Shown here: positions 326 to 7,176 of the stretch, piece by piece | How positions within the stretch are numbered: position 1 is the first letter of the stretch | Layout of the letters: every line of letters starts with the position of its first letter | Notes under the pieces: generated by a model | The model's database searches: none | The model's input: only the letters and a program-made list of their open reading frames with translations | Told to the model about the DNA's origin: nothing | Made by a program: the position numbers and the translations under genes | Assembly: GCA_028718265.1 (NCBI GenBank) | Contig: JAQUMG010000092.1 | Coordinates: 1-7,176 of the forward strand | Origin: Candidatus Omnitrophota bacterium | GTDB lineage: Bacteria > Omnitrophota > Koll11 > JAHIPI01 | Direction: 5' to 3' | Length of the DNA stretch: 7,176 nucleotides

Positions 326-1636
326 TTATGCCAATCGCTTGAATCCGCTGTGGCAGACTGGGCCCTTCAAATATTTCTCAGGGCTGCCTTTCCTGATGAT
401 CGCCGCGATAGCTTTAAATACATCATCAACTGCTTCCAAATAATTATCGATGTCTTTTTCCTTGTGGCCATAGGACGCATAAAACGCCGGTACGGCTAAA
501 AATCCTTTTTTAAGCATCTCCTGCGTGAACAGCGTTTTTAAAACAAGCGGCTTGTCGTATTTAAACGAAAAATGGCCCAGCGGATATATTCCTGAGATCT
601 CAATATTCAGCCCGTTTTTGTCCGCCGCGGCCTGCCATCCGTCCTGCACTTTCCTGCCTATCTTATTAAGGTGCGCAGTAACTTTCTCTTTTTTAATCTT
701 ACGCATAGTTGCTAACGCTGCAGCAGGGCCTATGCGCTCTGTCCAGTAAGTACTGCTTATAAATGTTTCCTGCGCTGCCGCCATCACTTCTTTACGTCCG
801 ATAATAGCTGCCATCGGATAGCCGTTGCTCATTGCCTTTCCGAATACTGCCATATCAGGATTGACGCCGTATTTTAAATGCGCGCCGCCTGCGGTCAACC
901 TGAACCCGGCTGTGATCTCATCAAAAATAAGGACTATACCTGATTTTTTTGTCTCTTCTCTTATGGTCTCTAAAAATCCTTCTTCCGGCTCATGATTCCT
1001 GACCGGCTCCATTACGACAGCCGCTACATTTTCTCTGTGAGCCCTTATCAGCTTCAGAAATGATTCGGTACCATTGTAATTAAACGGCAGTGCGGTGCCT
1101 TTCAGCGCTCTTGGTACTCCTTTGGGCGCGAGCCCCGGCAGGAGATGTCCGTTCAGAGACTTATCATCATGCAGATTGGCCGCGAGATACCAGTCGTGCC
1201 ATCCATGATATCCGCAGAACAGTATGAGATCTTTATCTCTCTTGGCCCGCGCTATCCGCACGGCTATGGCCATTGCTTCTCCGCCTGTGCGCGCATATCT
1301 CACCATGCCGGCCCAGGGATGGATATCACATAACGTCTCGGCAAGTTCTACTTCTTCGGGACAATTTAACGTAGCCATCGAACCTTTATCTACGGCGTTT
1401 TTAACTGCGCGGTCTACGTCTTTATCGGCGTAACCCAATATACACGCGCCTATGCCCATATAACTGGCATCCGTGTATTTTTTCCCGTCCATGTCCCATA
1501 TGGTACATCCCTTGGCCCTGTCATAATATGCCGGCCAGATATCCGGCAGGAACATCTCGGGCCGTTTTGACAAAAGCTGCGTCCCGCCCGGTATTATCTC
1601 TTTTGCTCTTTTATATAACCTTTGCCCTTTACCCAT
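326..1636 (-). CDS. Class-III PLP-dependent aminotransferase, glutamate-1-semialdehyde aminomutase-like
   Basis: A 436-residue PLP enzyme of fold type I, full length for the family. Visible motifs: IIPGGTQLLSKRPE near residues 14-27 (substrate-entry region typical of the GSA-aminomutase group), WDMDGKKYTD at 47-56, TGGEAMAIAVRIARA at 117-131 (cofactor phosphate region), YHGWHDW at 143-149, FDEITAGFR at 238-246 with D239 to pair with the pyridine nitrogen, and FGKAMSNG at 265-272 with K267 as the likely Schiff-base lysine. The tail ends in HSGFKRL. The ribosome site AGGAG lies 6 nt before the ATG, and the gene follows the cytidylyltransferase by 14 nt. In true heme-pathway HemL the lysine region usually reads GK(I/V)IGGGLP; here it is GKAMSNGYP. 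With that and the neighbours, a role in transaminating a sugar or sugar-like intermediate is more likely than 5-aminolevulinate synthesis. The actual substrate is not known. Confidence 0.85.
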   Translation of the reverse strand: MGKGQRLYKRAKEIIPGGTQLLSKRPEMFLPDIWPAYYDRAKGCTIWDMDGKKYTDASYMGIGACILGYADKDVDRAVKNAVDKGSMATLNCPEEVELAETLCDIHPWAGMVRYARTGGEAMAIAVRIARAKRDKDLILFCGYHGWHDWYLAANLHDDKSLNGHLLPGLAPKGVPRALKGTALPFNYNGTESFLKLIRAHRENVAAVVMEPVRNHEPEEGFLETIREETKKSGIVLIFDEITAGFRLTAGGAHLKYGVNPDMAVFGKAMSNGYPMAAIIGRKEVMAAAQETFISSTYWTERIGPAAALATMRKIKKEKVTAHLNKIGRKVQDGWQAAADKNGLNIEISGIYPLGHFSFKYDKPLVLKTLFTQEMLKKGFLAVPAFYASYGHKEKDIDNYLEAVDDVFKAIAAIIRKGSPEKYLKGPVCHSGFKRLA

Positions 1637-1650
1637 TTTGCGCTCCTGAC

Positions 1651-2418
1651 CTATTTTATCCGGCTGTCTTCCTTCAGTGACTTCTGATACCCCTCGTTTC
1701 TGGGGATATCTTTATTGATATTTTCTATGCCCGGATGTTCGTTTATGAACTGTAATATATCTTTCATGGTAAAAGCCGGATTAGCGGGGTAAAGCGACTC
1801 TAATACGGCCTTGATAAACTGAAAATCCTTTTCTTTGTCCAGCGTCCATCTTTTGGCCGAAAGATCGGAATCGTTTCTAAGGCCTGCTAACTTGAACCTT
1901 TCGGGATGTTTTGTCATATATGGTGTAACATGTTCTCTCTCCGAACGAAGCCCGGCATTCTTCCACGCATCGCGCAAAGCATTAAAACTAAATACCTCTA
2001 CATCCTCTCCGTCCGGAAAAGTCGGTTCCAACACATTTGAACAGTAATCAGCCCCGCTTTTCTTATAAAGGTTTACAACCGAGTCTATTACGGCAGAGTC
2101 TATCAGAGGACAGTCGGCTGTTATTCTTACAATGTGTCCCGCATCAAATTTTTTTGCGGCCTGATAAAACCTGTCTAAGACATCGTCTTCCGAGCCGCGA
2201 TATACCTCTGTATCAAGCTTAGCCGCTATGTCGGTTATAGTCATATCTTCCTTGCTGTCGGTAGTCGCGACTATTACGCCTTTTATATTCTTTGCCCTTC
2301 TCACTCTTTCTATTACATACTCGAGCACAGGTTTTCCCATGATCGCCAGCAACACCTTGCGCGGTAATCGGGTAGATCCGGTCCTTGCCTGAATAATTGC
2401 CTTTGTTTTCATTGCCAT
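1651..2418 (-). CDS. spsF: SpsF-like cytidylyltransferase / NTP-transferase family protein
   Basis: A 255-residue nucleotidyltransferase of the acylneuraminate-cytidylyltransferase/SpsF group. It probably activates a sugar or sugar acid as its CMP derivative in the cytosol. The N-terminal signature IIQARTGSTRLPRK (residues 8-21) is the CTP-binding loop. Further family motifs are YRGSEDDVLDRFYQAA (73-88), RITADCPLID (98-107, D102 a likely metal ligand), FPDGEDVEVF (134-143) and REHVTPY (161-167). Residue 20 is Arg where relatives usually have Gly (LPGK). Two starts are possible. The ATG at 2418 gives a 10-nt overlap with the reductase gene. The ATG at 2412 (Met3) gives the classic 4-nt ATGA overlap and a protein beginning MKTKAIIQAR, closer to the usual family start. 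Neither has a clear Shine-Dalgarno, which fits translational coupling; 2412 is slightly preferred on family grounds. In the PseB/PseC context it may play the PseF role, but activity on pseudaminate is not shown. Confidence 0.85.
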   Translation of the reverse strand: MAMKTKAIIQARTGSTRLPRKVLLAIMGKPVLEYVIERVRRAKNIKGVIVATTDSKEDMTITDIAAKLDTEVYRGSEDDVLDRFYQAAKKFDAGHIVRITADCPLIDSAVIDSVVNLYKKSGADYCSNVLEPTFPDGEDVEVFSFNALRDAWKNAGLRSEREHVTPYMTKHPERFKLAGLRNDSDLSAKRWTLDKEKDFQFIKAVLESLYPANPAFTMKDILQFINEHPGIENINKDIPRNEGYQKSLKEDSRIK

Positions 2419-3293
2419 TTATAGGGTAAAATCACGTTTTCGTCATGAAGCTGTAAAGACCCCAGACGGTCGTATATCTTTTTCACTTCATCAATTTGCC
2501 GTACAGAGTCAACGTTCTCTTTAAGCTGCGCGGGAGAATCTACCCCTATGATAACTTTATCGATGAGCGGATTGAGTAACGCGAAACACAGACACAGCGT
2601 CTTTACGGAAAAATCATGCTCTTCCGCGATGTGACGCATCTCTTCTATGTTATGACGCGCCGTGCCGAATTCCCTGCTTATCCTTTCTGCATCAAGAAAA
2701 AACAGGCCCTGCAAAAATACCGACCTGACATGGATCTCTATGCCTCGCCCGTGCAGCATAGGAAAGTATTCCTCAAATCGCCTGTCAAACACATTGTAGG
2801 GAATCTGGATTATATCAAAATTGATCTTCCGCTCTAATATAAGCTCCAATTCCATGGGCGTATAAATAGAGACGCCTATCTTTTCTGCCAGTCCTTTCTC
2901 TTTTATTGACTCCAGAGCCGGCCAAAATCCTTCCTTCGACAGAACGTTATCAACCCTGTGCGCCAGATAGCCGTATATGCGCCCGGTGCCGAGTCGTCTA
3001 AGCGTCTCGGCAAAATACTTATCTACCGAGGAAAAACTGCCGCCGTCGATGTCCGGCATTTTCGATACCACATTAAAACGCGCTTTATGCCCGGATAAAA
3101 AATCTCCTATCATTTTTTCGCTGTCTCCGTAAGCATAGGCGGTATCCAGATGTCTTATGCCGGCTTCGCCCGCATACCGCAAAACCTCATAGACATCTTC
3201 TTCTTTCATCCTGCCGTTTTTATTAGCTATGCCGTAATTCAGCCCGAATTGCGCCGTACCTAATGACATTTTCTCAGAACATATCTTATTCAT
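2409..3293 (-). CDS. Aldo/keto reductase family protein
   Basis: A 294-residue TIM-barrel NAD(P)H-dependent reductase, typical in length. The opening LGTAQFGLNYGIANKNG (11-27) is characteristic of the aldo/keto reductases found in polysaccharide loci. The catalytic tetrad can be read: D50 and Y55 in HLDTAYAYG, K78 in VVSKMP and H112 in YLAHRVD. Cofactor-side motifs include IGVSIYTP (139-146), IQIPYNVFD (162-170) and KVIIGVDSPAQLKENV (246-261). The start overlaps the end of the PseC-like gene by 8 nt. Only a weak AGG, about 10 nt upstream, could serve as ribosome site, so translation is probably coupled. Its place between the 4-aminotransferase and the cytidylyltransferase suggests reduction of a keto or aldehyde group on a sugar intermediate. 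Pseudaminate biosynthesis as known does not need this step, so the substrate is uncertain. Confidence 0.87.
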   Translation of the reverse strand: MNKICSEKMSLGTAQFGLNYGIANKNGRMKEEDVYEVLRYAGEAGIRHLDTAYAYGDSEKMIGDFLSGHKARFNVVSKMPDIDGGSFSSVDKYFAETLRRLGTGRIYGYLAHRVDNVLSKEGFWPALESIKEKGLAEKIGVSIYTPMELELILERKINFDIIQIPYNVFDRRFEEYFPMLHGRGIEIHVRSVFLQGLFFLDAERISREFGTARHNIEEMRHIAEEHDFSVKTLCLCFALLNPLIDKVIIGVDSPAQLKENVDSVRQIDEVKKIYDRLGSLQLHDENVILPYKWQ

Positions 3294-4440
3294 ATCCGAA
3301 AAACCTTTTTATCTCTTTTATGACTCTCTTCTGGTCCTGCCCGGACAGGCCCGCATAGAGAGGAAGGCTCAGACACTCGCTGAAATATTTCTCGGCAACC
3401 GGAAAATCTCCCATATGATAACCAAACGACTTTTTGTAATATGTAAGCAAGTGTACGGGTATATAATTTACCTGCGTAAGTATGCCTTTACGCATCAGAT
3501 AGTCATACAGGCGGTTGCGCGCGCCTGCCGGAATCCTGATTACATACAGATGATACGCGGTCCTGGTGTTTTTTATCTCATGCGGCAGTCTGATCTCTTC
3601 GACGCCGCTAAAAGCGTTGTTGTAAGTATCGACGATCTCTCTCCGGATCTTTATCATCTTATCAATTTTTTTCATCTGAGACATGCCCAGGGCACATTGA
3701 AAATCTGTAATTCGGTAATTAAATCCTATCTGGGGAATGTCATAGAACCATTTCGGTCCGTTTTCCGGGCGGCAGATCCCGTGATGCCTCAGCCGCGATA
3801 CCTTTTCGTAAATCTTTTTATCATTCGTAAGAACCGCCCCGCCTTCTCCGGTGGTAATATTCTTTATCGGATGAAAGCTGAATATGGTTACGTCTGAATG
3901 GCGGCAGCTGCCGACCTTTACCCATTTGCCGCCGGTTTTATATGTACTCCCAACGGCATGGGCGGCATCTTCGACTATTTTGATGCCATTTTTATCGCAG
4001 ATATCCCTAATAGCGGCTATATCGGAAACTGAGCCTGTAAAATGGACCGGGACAACTACCTTGACCTTATTGCTCCTGCGGGAATCTCTGAGAAGATATC
4101 TTAATTTTTCTATATCAATATGGCAGGTATTGTCGTCTATATCCGCAAAACGTGGAACAGCGCCGACATAGGCAGCGCAATTCGCACTGGCCGAAAAAGT
4201 AATAGGAGAGGTAACTGTCTCGTCTCCCCTGCCTATTTCAAGCGCCATCATCGCGAGGTGCAAAGCGGCTGTTCCGCTTGAAACAGCTACTGCATATTTT
4301 GCGCCGGTGTAACCGCACAAAACTTCTTCGAACTCTTTCACCCTGGGCCCCTGCGTAAGCCAGTCTGACGCAACTGCCCTGCGGACAGCGTTTATATCGG
4401 ATAAATCTATGTATTGATGCGCGTATGGTATTTTTTTCAT
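3286..4440 (-). CDS. pseC: PseC-like UDP-4-keto-6-deoxysugar 4-aminotransferase (DegT/DnrJ/EryC1 family)
   Basis: A 384-residue PLP-dependent sugar aminotransferase, the usual length for PseC. It should convert the PseB product UDP-2-acetamido-2,6-dideoxy-L-arabino-hexos-4-ulose to the 4-amino sugar, with glutamate as amino donor. Motifs: IPYAHQYID at the start, SDWLTQGPRVKEFEE (25-39), VSSGTAALHLA (53-63, phosphate binding), SPITFSASANCAAY (78-91), VEDAAHAVGSTY (156-167; D158 and H161 near the cofactor) and FSFHPIKNITTGEGG (187-201) with K193 as the Schiff-base lysine. GFNYRITDFQCALG (239-252) and QVNYIPVHLLTYY (323-335) are further group signatures. The ATG overlaps the dehydratase stop as ATGA (4 nt) and no separate ribosome site is visible, so the two are probably translationally coupled. 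The PseB partner supports PseC over other DegT-family activities. Confidence 0.92.
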   Translation of the reverse strand: MKKIPYAHQYIDLSDINAVRRAVASDWLTQGPRVKEFEEVLCGYTGAKYAVAVSSGTAALHLAMMALEIGRGDETVTSPITFSASANCAAYVGAVPRFADIDDNTCHIDIEKLRYLLRDSRRSNKVKVVVPVHFTGSVSDIAAIRDICDKNGIKIVEDAAHAVGSTYKTGGKWVKVGSCRHSDVTIFSFHPIKNITTGEGGAVLTNDKKIYEKVSRLRHHGICRPENGPKWFYDIPQIGFNYRITDFQCALGMSQMKKIDKMIKIRREIVDTYNNAFSGVEEIRLPHEIKNTRTAYHLYVIRIPAGARNRLYDYLMRKGILTQVNYIPVHLLTYYKKSFGYHMGDFPVAEKYFSECLSLPLYAGLSGQDQKRVIKEIKRFFGYE

Positions 4441-5426
4441 TGTTCTAGATTAGTCAGGATCGTTTTCAGCTGGGCCGTGGTAAGCCATTCAGCGTTATTA
4501 TCGCTTCCGTATCTGAACCCTTCCGGGACTGATTTGCACTTCGCATATTTTTTATGCACGTCTCTGCTTTCGAAAAATTGGGGCAATATTACGTACATAC
4601 CGTTGAATATTTTGACCCTCCGCGCGTCATCTTCGGCGATAAGCAATTCGTGCATTTTTTCGCCCGGCCTTATGCCTATGATCTTAAACCGGCATTGCGG
4701 CTCGATCGCTTTCGCCAGATCTACCAGCTTCATGGACGGGATACGCGGGACAAATATCTCGCCGCCGCCCGTCTCTTCCAGTGCACTTATTACAAGCTCT
4801 ACACTTTGTTCCAGGGTCATCCAAAAACGAGTCATCCTTTCATCGGTAATAGGAAAATCTTTTACGCCGGCCTGCTTAAGCTTAAGAAAAAACTCAATAA
4901 CACTGCCGCGGGAGGCCATAACATTGCCGTACCGCACAACCGAAAATATGACGCGGCCTCCGCCGTATGCGTTGGCATCTATGAATATCTTTTCCGCTAC
5001 AAGTTTTGTTGCCCCGTACAGGTTTATAGGGTTTGCTGCCTTGTCGGTCGAAAGCGCGATGACCTTTTTTACGTTTTGATCAAGCGCCGCCTCGACGATA
5101 TTGTCCGCCCCGAGGACATTTGTCTTAACCGCCTCCATGGGATTATATTCCAGGGCCGGGACCTGCTTTAATGCAGCGGCATGAACAACATAATCGACGT
5201 TTTCAAAAGCACGCTCCAGTCTGTCCTTGTCCCTTATATCTCCCAGGAAAAACCGTATTTTGTATTTCGTATCCGGAAATTTTTTGGCCATCTCCGACTG
5301 TTTAAACTCGTCCCTGCTGAATATAATGAGTTTCTTCGGCTTGTATTTCGCGAAGATTATTTCCGTAAATTTCTGTCCAAATGAGCCTGTGCCGCCGGTT
5401 ACAAGAATCACTTTATTGTCTAACAT
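4437..5426 (-). CDS. pseB: PseB-like UDP-N-acetylglucosamine 4,6-dehydratase (inverting)
   Basis: A 329-residue extended short-chain dehydrogenase, the soluble short form without the transmembrane half found in WbpM-type proteins. It should catalyse 4,6-dehydration with 5-epimerisation of UDP-GlcNAc, the first step toward pseudaminic acid or related 4-amino-6-deoxy sugars. The nucleotide-binding motif is VTGGTGSFG (9-17). Next come SRDEFKQ (37-43), LGDIRDKDRL (61-70) and HAAALKQVPALEYNP (82-96). The catalytic segment STDKAANP (126-133) supplies T127, D128 and K129, with Y137 and K141 in LYGATK. The TDK triad in place of the usual S/T before Tyr-x-x-x-Lys is the PseB/FlaA1 hallmark. VRYGNVMASRGSVIEFF (164-180) and TDERMTRFWMT (194-204) are further signatures. 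The ribosome site GGGAGGT lies inside the end of the regulator gene, and the start shares one base with the regulator stop (TAATG). Confidence 0.94.
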   Translation of the reverse strand: MLDNKVILVTGGTGSFGQKFTEIIFAKYKPKKLIIFSRDEFKQSEMAKKFPDTKYKIRFFLGDIRDKDRLERAFENVDYVVHAAALKQVPALEYNPMEAVKTNVLGADNIVEAALDQNVKKVIALSTDKAANPINLYGATKLVAEKIFIDANAYGGGRVIFSVVRYGNVMASRGSVIEFFLKLKQAGVKDFPITDERMTRFWMTLEQSVELVISALEETGGGEIFVPRIPSMKLVDLAKAIEPQCRFKIIGIRPGEKMHELLIAEDDARRVKIFNGMYVILPQFFESRDVHKKYAKCKSVPEGFRYGSDNNAEWLTTAQLKTILTNLEQ

Positions 5427-5761
5427 TATGACCTCCCGTTGACATATTTATCATATTCGTCCTTAAGCCTCTTATATTCCGCCTCTTTTACCTGAAGAAA
5501 CTGGTAGGTAAGCTTCACCTTCTGCTGAAGGCCTTTGCTGGTAAGAATGTATTTTATCTTTTTTGCTTTTTTGGGATTTTTGGAAAAGTTGGATATTTTG
5601 ATCATGCCTTTTTTGGCGAGTTCTCTCAGGAGATAATTCGTTTTCCCCAGAGAAACGTTTAATTTCTGGGAAAGCACCCTCTGGTTAAGGGCCGGATTGC
5701 CCTCGACCTCGCGTATCAGGTTAAGGGTCTGTTCTTCCTTTATGCTGGCATGGTTATTCAT
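5426..5761 (-). CDS. MarR-type EPS-associated winged-helix transcriptional regulator
   Basis: A basic protein of 111 residues. A winged helix-turn-helix occupies about residues 10-75: helix LNLIREVEGN, NQRVLSQKLNVSLGKTNYLLRELAKKG (26-52) as the helix-turn-helix, and a lysine-rich wing around KNPKKAKKIKYILTSKG (61-77). A C-terminal amphipathic, charged helix, KVKLTYQFLQVKEAEYKRLKDEYDKY without its first and last turns, runs about 81-106 and probably forms a dimerising coiled coil. This layout matches the small MarR-like family named for association with exopolysaccharide loci. As first gene of the operon, lying directly behind its promoter and an inverted repeat, it is probably an autoregulator of the glycan genes. 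Activator or repressor is not decided by sequence, but the repeat position favours repression. The start at 5761 has AAGGAA 7 nt upstream. No ligand-binding pocket is evident in so small a protein. Confidence 0.85.
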   Translation of the reverse strand: MNNHASIKEEQTLNLIREVEGNPALNQRVLSQKLNVSLGKTNYLLRELAKKGMIKISNFSKNPKKAKKIKYILTSKGLQQKVKLTYQFLQVKEAEYKRLKDEYDKYVNGRS

Positions 5762-5782
5762 ATGTTCATTCCTTGAACATAT
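5760..5782. promoter_or_regulatory. Perfect inverted repeat, candidate operator 1 for the EPS-type regulator
   Basis: ATATGTTCA (5760-5768) and TGAACATAT (5774-5782) are perfect 9-bp arms around a 5-bp spacer TTCCT. On the leftward mRNA strand the repeat takes in the last two bases of the TACAAT box, the predicted transcription start, the ribosome site (in the spacer) and two bases of the regulator ATG. A dimeric winged-helix protein bound here would block transcription start. As RNA the same arms could fold into a hairpin that holds the ribosome site in its loop. Binding by this regulator is inferred from position. Confidence 0.7.
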
Positions 5783-5809
5783 TGTATGGCGTTATGGCCT
5801 TAGTGTCAA
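5781..5809 (-). promoter_or_regulatory. Sigma-70-type promoter of the leftward glycan operon
   Basis: On the minus strand TTGACA (5809-5804, all six consensus bases) is followed by a 17-bp spacer and TACAAT (5786-5781, five of six). The start is predicted near 5774, an A, which leaves a leader of only about 13 nt that begins almost at the AAGGAA ribosome site. It is the only good promoter seen upstream of the regulator, and the tight gene packing suggests it drives the genes down to the left edge. Confidence 0.8.
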
Positions 5810-5822
5810 GCATAAAAGCGGT

Positions 5823-5843
5823 TTTGTTCAATTTTTGTACAAA
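5823..5843. promoter_or_regulatory. Imperfect inverted repeat, candidate operator 2
   Basis: TTTGTTCA (5823-5830), a 5-bp spacer and TGTACAAA (5836-5843) match as an inverted repeat in 7 of 8 pairs. The left half-site TGTTCA and the spacer length are the same as in the perfect repeat at 5760-5782. The centres are 62 bp apart, close to six turns of B-DNA, so both would face the same side of the helix. It lies upstream of the leftward -35 box and would fall within a possible rightward promoter. A further single half-site, CTTGAAC, occurs at 5863-5869. Confidence 0.5.
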
Positions 5844-5902: not shown

Positions 5903-7176
5903 ATGATGAACATACTGACCTTAATACCTCCTGCATTATCAGGCGGAAATACTATAAGGGATGTCCTGTACGGCTGCTGGTGCAGGGGCCGCAGGATAGG
6001 CGGAGGCACAATACCTCCCCTTACGCTCCTGTCTGTTGCCTCCATACTGAAGAAGAACGGCCACTCGGTAAGGCTTATGGATGCTGACGGCGAAAAAAAG
6101 ACCCTGAAAGACATAAAAAACGACATAAAGAGCTTTGATTTTGTCATTCTGCTGACCTCAAGCATGAGCTTTAGGGAAGATGCGCAGGTGCTTGCCGGAT
6201 TAAAAAAGGAAAACCCACGGCTTATTACCAGCGCCTTCGGCTCCCACCCCACCTTTCTGCCTGAGGCATGCCTCAATACCGATGGAATCGACATCCTTGT
6301 CCGTTATGAACCTGAGTTCATATACAGAGATCTGGCCGATGCGCTGTCAAAGAAAAATGATACGTGGAAAGCCGTAAAAGGCATAGCGTTCAGGGACAGT
6401 ACGGGCATACATATAAACGAACGTTATCCTTTCATTGAAAACCTGGACGAACTGCCGATTCCGGACAGGTCATTATTAAACAGAAACCTTGTTTATTTCA
6501 ACCCGCTTGTCAAAAGGCTGCCTTATACGACTTCAATCACCTCCCGGGGTTGTCCGGGCAAGTGTACTTTCTGTACCGCGCCGGCTTTCACCGGAAGTAA
6601 GGTGCGCCATAACAGCGCCGATTACGTCCTTCGCGAAATCGAATACCTCCTGTCTTCGGGAATAAAAGAAATATATTATCGTGATGAAACCTTCTCTTTC
6701 TTCCCCCAAAGGAATAAAATCATATGCGAAACGATAATAGCCAAAAAAATGAATGTGAGCTGGCTCTGCAATGTGAGAGTCGGAACGGTTAAAAAAGACA
6801 TGCTTTCTCTGATGAAAAAGGCCGGCTGCCATACCATAAAAGCAGGCGTGGAAAGCGGCGTACAGGAAATACTGGATAAGTCTCAAAAAAACATAAGATT
6901 AAGAGATACCGAGGACCTCTTCAGGTGGGCCCGTGAACTGGGCATTGCAACACATGCCCACGTGATGCTCGGAATGCCCGGCGAAAACAGGGATACAATG
7001 AAAAGGACTGCGGACTTTGTCATATCACTAAAGCCTACAACGGTTGATTTCGGAATATGCACGCCTTATCCCGGAGCTGCGTTATTCGATAAACTTCTGA
7101 GTGAACATAAGGACCTGAAAGATAAGATGGAAATCGACTGGGAGATGCTCCACACGAGCGGCAACCTGAATAAATA
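5903..7176 (+). CDS. B12-binding radical SAM protein (runs off right edge)
   Basis: At least 424 codons without a stop, open at the right edge. The N-terminal part (about 1-150) is a cobalamin-binding Rossmann domain: NILTLIPP, LLSVASILKKNGHSVRLMDA, FVILLTSS and ITSAFGSHPTFLP, then ILVRYEPEF. A linker with ENLDELPIPDRSLL leads to the radical SAM domain, whose cluster motif is C217-x3-C221-x2-C224 (SRGCPGKCTFC). Later motifs are YYRDETF (258-264), AGVESG (314-319, SAM-binding region) and HVMLGMPGE (353-361). This is the BchE-like class B layout, whose members catalyse methyl transfer, cyclisation or other radical steps. An unusual YGCWCRGRRIGGG segment lies at 23-35. The start is uncertain: ATG at 5903 has a GAGTGA 8 nt upstream, GTG at 5891 is in frame and would begin MKRLMMN, and ATG at 5906 is also possible. 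It diverges from the glycan operon across about 140 bp of shared control region. Substrate unknown. Confidence 0.88.
   Translation, partial: MMNILTLIPPALSGGNTIRDVLYGCWCRGRRIGGGTIPPLTLLSVASILKKNGHSVRLMDADGEKKTLKDIKNDIKSFDFVILLTSSMSFREDAQVLAGLKKENPRLITSAFGSHPTFLPEACLNTDGIDILVRYEPEFIYRDLADALSKKNDTWKAVKGIAFRDSTGIHINERYPFIENLDELPIPDRSLLNRNLVYFNPLVKRLPYTTSITSRGCPGKCTFCTAPAFTGSKVRHNSADYVLREIEYLLSSGIKEIYYRDETFSFFPQRNKIICETIIAKKMNVSWLCNVRVGTVKKDMLSLMKKAGCHTIKAGVESGVQEILDKSQKNIRLRDTEDLFRWARELGIATHAHVMLGMPGENRDTMKRTADFVISLKPTTVDFGICTPYPGAALFDKLLSEHKDLKDKMEIDWEMLHTSGNLNK

Follow-up and report, generated by a model that had tools for sequence, protein, structure and literature searches.

Genes and predicted control elements at the locus

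The window, by which we mean the whole stretch of 7,176 nucleotides that was analysed, encodes a short regulator that is followed on the same strand by pseB, pseC and three further genes, as well as a divergent gene that runs off the end (Table 1); its nearest named relatives in the homologue search are Candidatus Omnitrophota. The regulator belongs to the MarR_EPS family (TIGR04176), whose cut-off it exceeds (E 1.2e-28), and it lies, as the family name implies, in a polysaccharide or surface-sugar cluster, with pseB and pseC directly downstream and both above their cut-offs. As the stop codon of the regulator and the pseB ATG share one base, and pseC and the three genes behind it lie on the same strand, whatever controls the regulator promoter very probably controls the entire sugar operon. 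The genes at 326-3293 form an unusual end for a pseudaminic-acid-like pathway, and all three score below the NCBIfam cut-offs. Among 137 downstream open reading frames of relatives, chosen by a simple rule, we found matches to the partly overlapping families GDP_Man_Dehyd (39), Epimerase (39), Polysacc_synt_2 (31), NTP_transferase (10) and Wzz (7).

An AlphaFold2 model of the regulator (pLDDT 86.3, pTM 0.73) has a winged-helix fold, in which residues 38-50 form the recognition helix and residues 75-108 a long C-terminal helix. Foldseek returned 24 matches with E values of 1e-3 or less (best 8.6e-05; TMq 0.48-0.65), nearly all of them MarR-type regulators, with MarR repressors as the nearest solved structures. 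The protein scores above the gathering threshold of the Pfam model PF13412 (HTH_24; 36.1 vs. 21.9) and below those of the MarR models PF01047 (17.2 vs. 24.6) and PF12802 (20.4 vs. 27), and a sequence search of the PDB returned only ribosomal eS25, with weak E-values. Residues S37, L38, G39, K40, N42 and Y43 are invariant in 31 sequences and begin the modelled recognition helix, which would fit the invariance of the half-site described below.

The original prediction had placed a perfect inverted repeat with 9-bp arms over the end of the -10 box, the transcription start, the Shine-Dalgarno sequence and the first bases of the regulator ATG. The repeat is exact: ATATGTTCA-TTCCT-TGAACATAT occupies 5760-5782, with arms (5760-5768 and 5774-5782) that are complementary at 9 of 9 positions, and its core, TGTTCA-N5-TGAACA, is the site that we designate O1. 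The overlaps agree in their coordinates as well, the start being a predicted one, since the -10 box reaches into the repeat with its last two bases and the ATG with its first two (5761-5760), and both the AGGA and the predicted start lie inside it. The minus-strand promoter, with a 17-nt spacer between TTGACA and TACAAT, matches at 11 of 12 positions; the promoter search gave one promoter-like site, compared to 0.6 expected in shuffles. With up to two mismatches allowed, the 12-base core occurs twice in the window as against 0.19 times per shuffled window, and two copies were reached by 3 of 200 shuffled windows. By itself, the window is only suggestive of a real site; it is the comparative evidence that decides.

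Table 1. Genes and predicted control elements of the window
Feature	Position	Strand	Remarks
Glutamate-1-semialdehyde-aminomutase-like aminotransferase, likely same operon	326..1636	-	Below cut-off
Cytidylyltransferase-like gene, likely same operon	1651..2418	-	KdsB-type matches below cut-off
Aldo/keto-reductase-like gene, likely same operon	2409..3293	-	Sole NCBIfam match KidO, below cut-off
pseC, UDP-4-amino-4,6-dideoxy-N-acetyl-beta-L-altrosamine transaminase	3286..4440	-	TIGR03588, 465.1 bits, cut-off 423.5
pseB, UDP-GlcNAc 4,6-dehydratase (inverting)	4437..5426	-	TIGR03589, 489.7 bits, cut-off 407.75
MarR_EPS regulator (TIGR04176), winged helix of 111 aa	5426..5761	-	99.2 bits, cut-off 88
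O1, primary predicted operator	5763..5779	-	TGTTCAAGGAATGAACA; 9-bp arms if extended to 5760-5782; conserved in relatives
Shine-Dalgarno-like AGGA	5770..5773	-	Within the O1 spacer
Predicted transcription start	~5774	-	Seventh nucleotide after the -10 hexamer, by rule of thumb
-10 hexamer TACAAT	5781..5786	-	Ends 1 nt before the 17-bp operator core
-35 hexamer TTGACA	5804..5809	-	CTTGAC invariant in the four-sequence footprint
O2, second predicted operator	5825..5841	-	TGTACAAAAATTGAACA, 11/12; TGTTCAATTTTTGTACA in forward reading; site and spacer kept in L091, L004 and L003
B12-binding radical SAM gene, divergent, extends beyond the window	5903..7174	+

O2 is a near-perfect second copy of the motif of which the original prediction made no mention. 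Its centre lies 62 bp from that of O1, at about -59 relative to the predicted start. When the window was aligned with the corresponding regions of L091, L004 and L003, we found that O1, O2, the -35 and the -10 hexamers are kept while the remainder is variable; O2 reads TTGTxCAAAAATTGAACAAA, or nearly so, in all four sequences, and the distance between the sites is 62, 62, 64 and 63 bp, respectively, or about six turns of DNA. We also considered whether O2 might be the operator of the divergent radical SAM gene, a reading that we do not favour: O2 is conserved in L091 and L004 even though another gene (TPR-like by eye) takes the divergent position there, and is therefore more likely to belong to the sugar operon than to the neighbour. 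The start of the radical SAM gene (5903-5917, ATGATGAACATACTG) contains one TGAACA half-site, with no second half listed beside it. In L003, operator and promoter precede pseH (TIGR03585, 108.1 vs. 93.1) and the regulator is the second gene, so that 'autorepression' would there amount to operon control.

Conservation of the motif beside the regulator family

Relatives of the regulator were collected from (i) a homologue search, which yielded alignment A1; (ii) a scan of genome contigs, which yielded 61 loci; and (iii) whole-genome searches of 384 genomes from the phylum of an Omnitrophota bacterium, 369 from the class of Methylococcus capsulatus and 297 from the phylum of a Desulfobulbaceae bacterium. 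Loci of the Omnitrophota set were matches of about 79 bits or more, and the Gammaproteobacteria and Desulfobacterota sets are represented by a subset of their loci. The genes were then re-located by profile (at least 75 bits) and made unique, resulting in a set of 162, of which 154 were retained after near-duplicates over -60..+60 had been removed.

The original prediction proposed a search for TGTTCA-N5-TGAACA upstream of homologous regulators, a test that it passed. Sites that agree with the consensus at 10 or more of its 12 bases lie within -150..+25 of 122 of the 154 genes (at least 11 bases, 108 genes; all 12, 73 genes), compared to about 1% of shuffled regions (162 genes, 20 shuffles each). 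Counted before near-duplicate removal, such sites accompany 36 of 41 genes in L001-L041, all titled Omnitrophota except L018 (Planctomycetales), 13 of 19 in the other contig-scan records, 38 of 44 in the Omnitrophota genomes, 24 of 30 in the Gammaproteobacteria and 17 of 27 in the Desulfobacterota, as well as the window. An inverted-repeat scan for which neither sequence nor spacer was preset pointed to the same element: repeats with a 5-nt spacer numbered 156 as against 35.6 in shuffles, spacers of 7 and 3 nt, which are the outer and inner frames of the same repeat, were also raised, and GTTCA-N5-TGAAC was recovered at 118 of the 154 genes. Sites with 11-12 matches are concentrated near gene starts (115 in 24,297 bp), with only 2 in 256,518 bp downstream and 16 in 244,093 bp at -2500..-300. 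Given that the site recurs beside the same type of regulator in distantly related bacteria, it is most likely the regulator's own binding site.

No site with at least 10 matches was found within -150..+25 of the remaining 32 of the 154 genes. Of these, 12 carry a site of 11 or more matches further away, 150-2500 bp upstream; the other 20 lack one, often with only about 1.5 kb of sequence covered. Two genes without the 5-nt form (L214 and L042) carry upstream GTTCAAAATTGAAC, in which the same half-sites are separated by 4 nt and which is perhaps a spacing variant. The L147 contig holds two family genes about 4 kb apart (G257:C1:84474-84791 and 88574-88882), neither of them with an operator of at least 10 matches near its start. 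A second, partial copy of the regulator lies in a short open frame in L016 (68 aa) and in L021 (56 aa), and L021 has an extra perfect operator about 1.5 kb upstream of its intact regulator gene.

Position relative to promoter and start codon

A promoter with at least 9 of 12 matches lies beside 82 of the 122 sites (67%, with 27 positions tried), compared to 3.8% at random positions, and in 64 of these 82 the -10 hexamer ends 1-3 nt before the operator. By the position of the start codon, the genes were grouped into (i) class a (47 genes, which apart from L018 come from the Omnitrophota sets), in which it lies inside the spacer; (ii) class b (11 genes), in which it shares TG with the right half; (iii) class c (22 genes, including the window), in which the operator centre lies 9-16 nt before it; and (iv) class d (41 genes), in which it lies further downstream. 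One gene fell into no class. The promoter was detected in 46 of the 47 class a genes, with 1-3 nt between -10 and operator in 44 of these 46, and in 3 of 11, 13 of 22 and 20 of 41 genes of classes b, c and d, respectively. Wherever promoters are recognisable, then, the distance to the start codon varies while the place beside the -10 hexamer stays. For Omnitrophota the evidence that the site is tied to the promoter is good; for the others it is partial, as the poor promoter matches in classes b-d leave the geometry less certain outside Omnitrophota.

Within class c, a Shine-Dalgarno-like word lies inside the operator in 6 of the 22 genes, namely the window and five relatives. A descent of the window's arrangement from a leaderless one, in which the ATG within the spacer had changed to AGG, is not claimed, since the former ATG would be in frame in the window and is not in L091. 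Two operators 44 bp apart are found in L028 (5930-5946 and about 5974-5990), one beside a consensus promoter and the other still over the ATG, and this locus has the appearance of a transitional form between leaderless and long-leader arrangements.

Codons within the predicted operator

In class a, the operator takes the form TGTTCA-ATGNN-TGAACA, in which the spacer opens with the start codon and the right half is read as codons 2-4 (NNT GAA CAN). Codon 2 ends in T in all 47 genes, spread over ten different codons; codon 3 is GAA in all 47, while further into the same genes GAA accounts for 208 and GAG for 144 of 352 Glu codons; and codon 4 is CAN in 45 of 47. As class a was chosen by its match to the operator, these codon counts are biased by that choice. 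A less biased count starts from the protein: 53 of the 154 begin with M-x-E-[HQRY], and 47 of the 53 have GTTCA directly before the ATG together with a T at the end of codon 2. There are six exceptions. In L029, L199 and L202 the operator lies 70-136 bp upstream, and their proteins keep M-N-E-H or M-D-E-H, as in class a, with a codon 2 (AAC or GAC) that breaks the half-site. L001 and L037 have imperfect sites in place (11/12 and 9/12), and L035 has none there. In class b, the start codon is ATG in 9 genes, GTG in 1 and TTG in 1, and codon 2 is AAC in 11 of 11, which is all but required by the definition of the class.

The predicted 5' untranslated region is 0-4 nt long in all 46 class a genes that have a promoter of at least 9/12, and an alternative start led by a Shine-Dalgarno-like word is available in 1 of 47. 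Judged by these predicted starts, class a messages, to which that of the window does not belong, look leaderless. A Shine-Dalgarno-like 4-mer precedes 3 of 47 class a genes; however, such words are uncommon in all classes (b, 0 of 11; c, 6 of 22; d, 7 of 41), so that their absence is not diagnostic of leaderless messages.

On balance, we lean towards the view that a single operator, TGTTCA-N5-TGAACA, has been kept with the family across at least three bacterial groups, longer relatives included, and has stayed fixed to recognisable promoters while start codons slid along it, the operator dictating the M-x-E-H/Q beginning of the protein in putatively leaderless forms. It forms part of this view, and is held with the same measured preference, that in the leaderless forms the same DNA would serve as operator, transcript start, start codon and coding sequence.

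Genome-wide association and additional sites

Of the 384 genomes in the Omnitrophota set, 135 have a family match and 249 have none; a perfect site is present in 103 of the former and 23 of the latter (odds ratio 31.6, p about 1e-41, for genomes that are not independent of one another), and is absent from 32 of the 135. A reversed pattern, used as a control, was found in 3 of 135 and 10 of 249 genomes, respectively. In three of the 23 genomes that have the site only (G077, G122 and G314), it lies within 131 bp of a contig end, and the regulator gene could there have been cut off. At least 54 of the 75 perfect sites listed fall within -250..+30 of a family match. In ten genomes, a search with a somewhat shorter pattern gave 20 distinct sites, 11 of them at a regulator start and at least one of these in each genome; one further site lay about 350 bp upstream.

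Some of the additional sites are promoter-like and precede polysaccharide genes, namely those for a nucleotidyltransferase (L246, 399 nt) and a Wzz protein (L037, 121 nt). Other additional sites were found 68 nt before a nucleotidyltransferase gene (L035), 307 nt before a methyltransferase gene (L021), 235 nt before an amino acid kinase gene (L245, which has no regulator match) and ahead of a 60KD_IMP gene unrelated to polysaccharide (L231). Perfect sites within or at the edge of open reading frames, such as those in L220, L238 and L244, look like chance matches in coding sequence and were set aside.

Probable mode of action and alternatives

Taking these results together, we consider it highly probable that the MarR_EPS (TIGR04176) regulator uses the repeat as its operator, for autorepression by blocking of the promoter. 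An autoregulatory operator with a motif of family-wide use had been put forward in the original prediction, and the recurrence of the site, together with its place next to the -10 hexamer in Omnitrophota genes with a recognisable promoter, supports that reading. Most likely, a winged-helix dimer would place one recognition helix in each of the TGTTCA and TGAACA half-sites, whose centres are 11 bp, or about one helical turn, apart. Since O1 spans the predicted +1 and lies directly against the -10 hexamer, the bound protein would keep RNA polymerase off the promoter, and the regulator and the downstream pse sugar operon would thereby be repressed together. O2, about six helical turns upstream, would probably strengthen repression through cooperative binding or looping.

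Conservation fits repression and activation alike and cannot separate them; repression is the likeliest effect. It is possible, though unlikely, that the site is indeed the family operator and the regulator an activator or a dual regulator, activating from O2 and repressing from O1 at high protein levels. Classical upstream activators bind at about the distance of O2 from the start, and O2 is conserved with its AAAAT spacer in all four aligned sequences. However, two sites of at least 10/12 within -300..+30 were found in only 16 of the 154 genes, so that second sites are not general, and the common form is a site by the -10 hexamer and over the predicted +1. Moreover, the promoter of the window, already at 11 of 12 matches, would have little need of activation, and the combination of promoter strength with a site over +1 is typical of repression.

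Much less probable is an RNA element, namely a hairpin in the 5' untranslated region that hides the ribosome site, which the original prediction had offered as a second layer of control. Transcribed in full, the repeat would fold with -8.0 kcal/mol (z -1.86) and hold the ribosome site in its loop. With the predicted start, however, transcription would begin downstream of the 5' arm, and the predicted transcript is no more stably folded than its shuffles (-1.8 kcal/mol, z 0.17); the hairpin is thus not supported. Both arms are also conserved letter by letter, and an element that, where promoters are recognisable, tracks the -10 hexamer rather than the start codon favours a DNA operator over an RNA element.

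That a different repressor with a similar motif owns the site, LexA being the foremost candidate, appears more improbable still. LexA also autoregulates, and the half-site found here, TGTTC/GAACA, resembles some LexA boxes; a Verrucomicrobia LexA box has the form TGTTC-N4-GAACA, though literature searches on LexA boxes did not bring up this one. Some LexA boxes have GTTC/GAAC half-sites, and others such as GTTC-N7-GTTC are on record (PMC8565304); spacing, target genes and the associated gene family differ from those described here. We examined 20 regulator-bearing genomes (16 from Omnitrophota), namely the ten searched with the shorter pattern and ten more from the Omnitrophota set: no site with at least 10 matches was found upstream (-300..+30) of 19 recA and 10 lexA genes, where the best scores were 6-9 (one recA fragment and the lexA matches under the cut-off were left out). 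The concentration of the listed perfect Omnitrophota sites at MarR_EPS-type genes, the promoter-like additional sites before the nucleotidyltransferase and Wzz genes, and the recurrence of the association in the Gammaproteobacteria and Desulfobacterota sets likewise argue against LexA, and for the genomes tested the identification as a LexA box is refuted. A chance repeat in an AT-rich promoter, for which only the modest level of the match in the window alone could speak, is refuted by the conservation across genomes and can be practically dismissed.

Relation to known systems

The regulator of the window agrees with the TIGR04176 family in scoring above its cut-off and in its location before nucleotide-sugar genes; the motif and its overlap with the start codon are additions to the family as described. 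In the openly licensed literature, searches by family name and number, for MarR with exopolysaccharide or exosortase, and for Omnitrophota regulators brought up no DNA target for TIGR04176, and an earlier description may exist elsewhere. One study names a family member as a gene up-regulated under salt in Acidithiobacillus caldus (PMC10599003), and another assigns PEP-CTERM genes a different, sigma-54-linked motif (PMC1569441).

With MarR-type autorepressors such as MexR, MepR, HcaR and SlyA, the regulator shares the winged-helix fold. These proteins bind a palindromic site over their own promoter, and a palindromic site over its own predicted promoter is what we found for the regulator of the window. 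It differs from them in its length of only 111 aa, in its site and in sequence, identity over the aligned parts of the 50 matches listed being 11-22% and rmsd mostly 5-10 A. AbfR2 (PDB 6cmv), a biofilm regulator according to its title, is similar in fold and in length (112-113 aa); it is archaeal and 21-22% identical to the regulator of the window.

Phages and restriction-modification systems have leaderless, autoregulated repressor mRNAs, in which a repressor likewise controls a leaderless message from a nearby operator. Here, in contrast, the start codon and codons 2-4 lie within the operator itself in 47 of 154 genes, and the 11 class b genes show a second register, with bases common to the start codon and the right half.

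With the operator reading strongly supported by the comparison across genomes, the main points of interest would be the family motif and the sharing of bases among operator, start codon and first codons in the putatively leaderless relatives. The former gives a regulator family that accompanies surface-polysaccharide clusters in many uncultured bacteria a DNA target open to testing, and from it candidate regulons can be read in sequence, the additional promoter-like sites pointing to a nucleotidyltransferase and a Wzz gene. The latter is a clear natural case of an operator and a coding sequence on the same bases, with a built-in control in the three members whose operator lies upstream and which have the same first residues encoded by codons that break the half-site.

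Longer relatives

The N-terminal domain of the regulator is shared with longer relatives, whose open frames span about 190-250 aa and in some cases nearly 500. A perfect site is present in 49 of 70 genomes that have only weaker matches to the family, many of them of the long type and some of them fragments. A MarR_EPS-like N-terminal domain with an extra C-terminal part was seen in L236, L233, L218, L159, L224, L232, L234, L235 and L237, of which L224 and L232-L237 had been picked because of their perfect operator. The C-terminal part of L159, which has no perfect operator near its start, is a domain of the C-methyltransferase type; in L233 it is a fused nucleotidyltransferase according to Pfam, and in L234 a nucleotidyltransferase by eye. 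These extra C-terminal parts, and the nucleotidyltransferase fusion, hint at a sugar-nucleotide signal, which is a reasonable guess and no more; the inducer of the window's regulator may perhaps be a nucleotide sugar.
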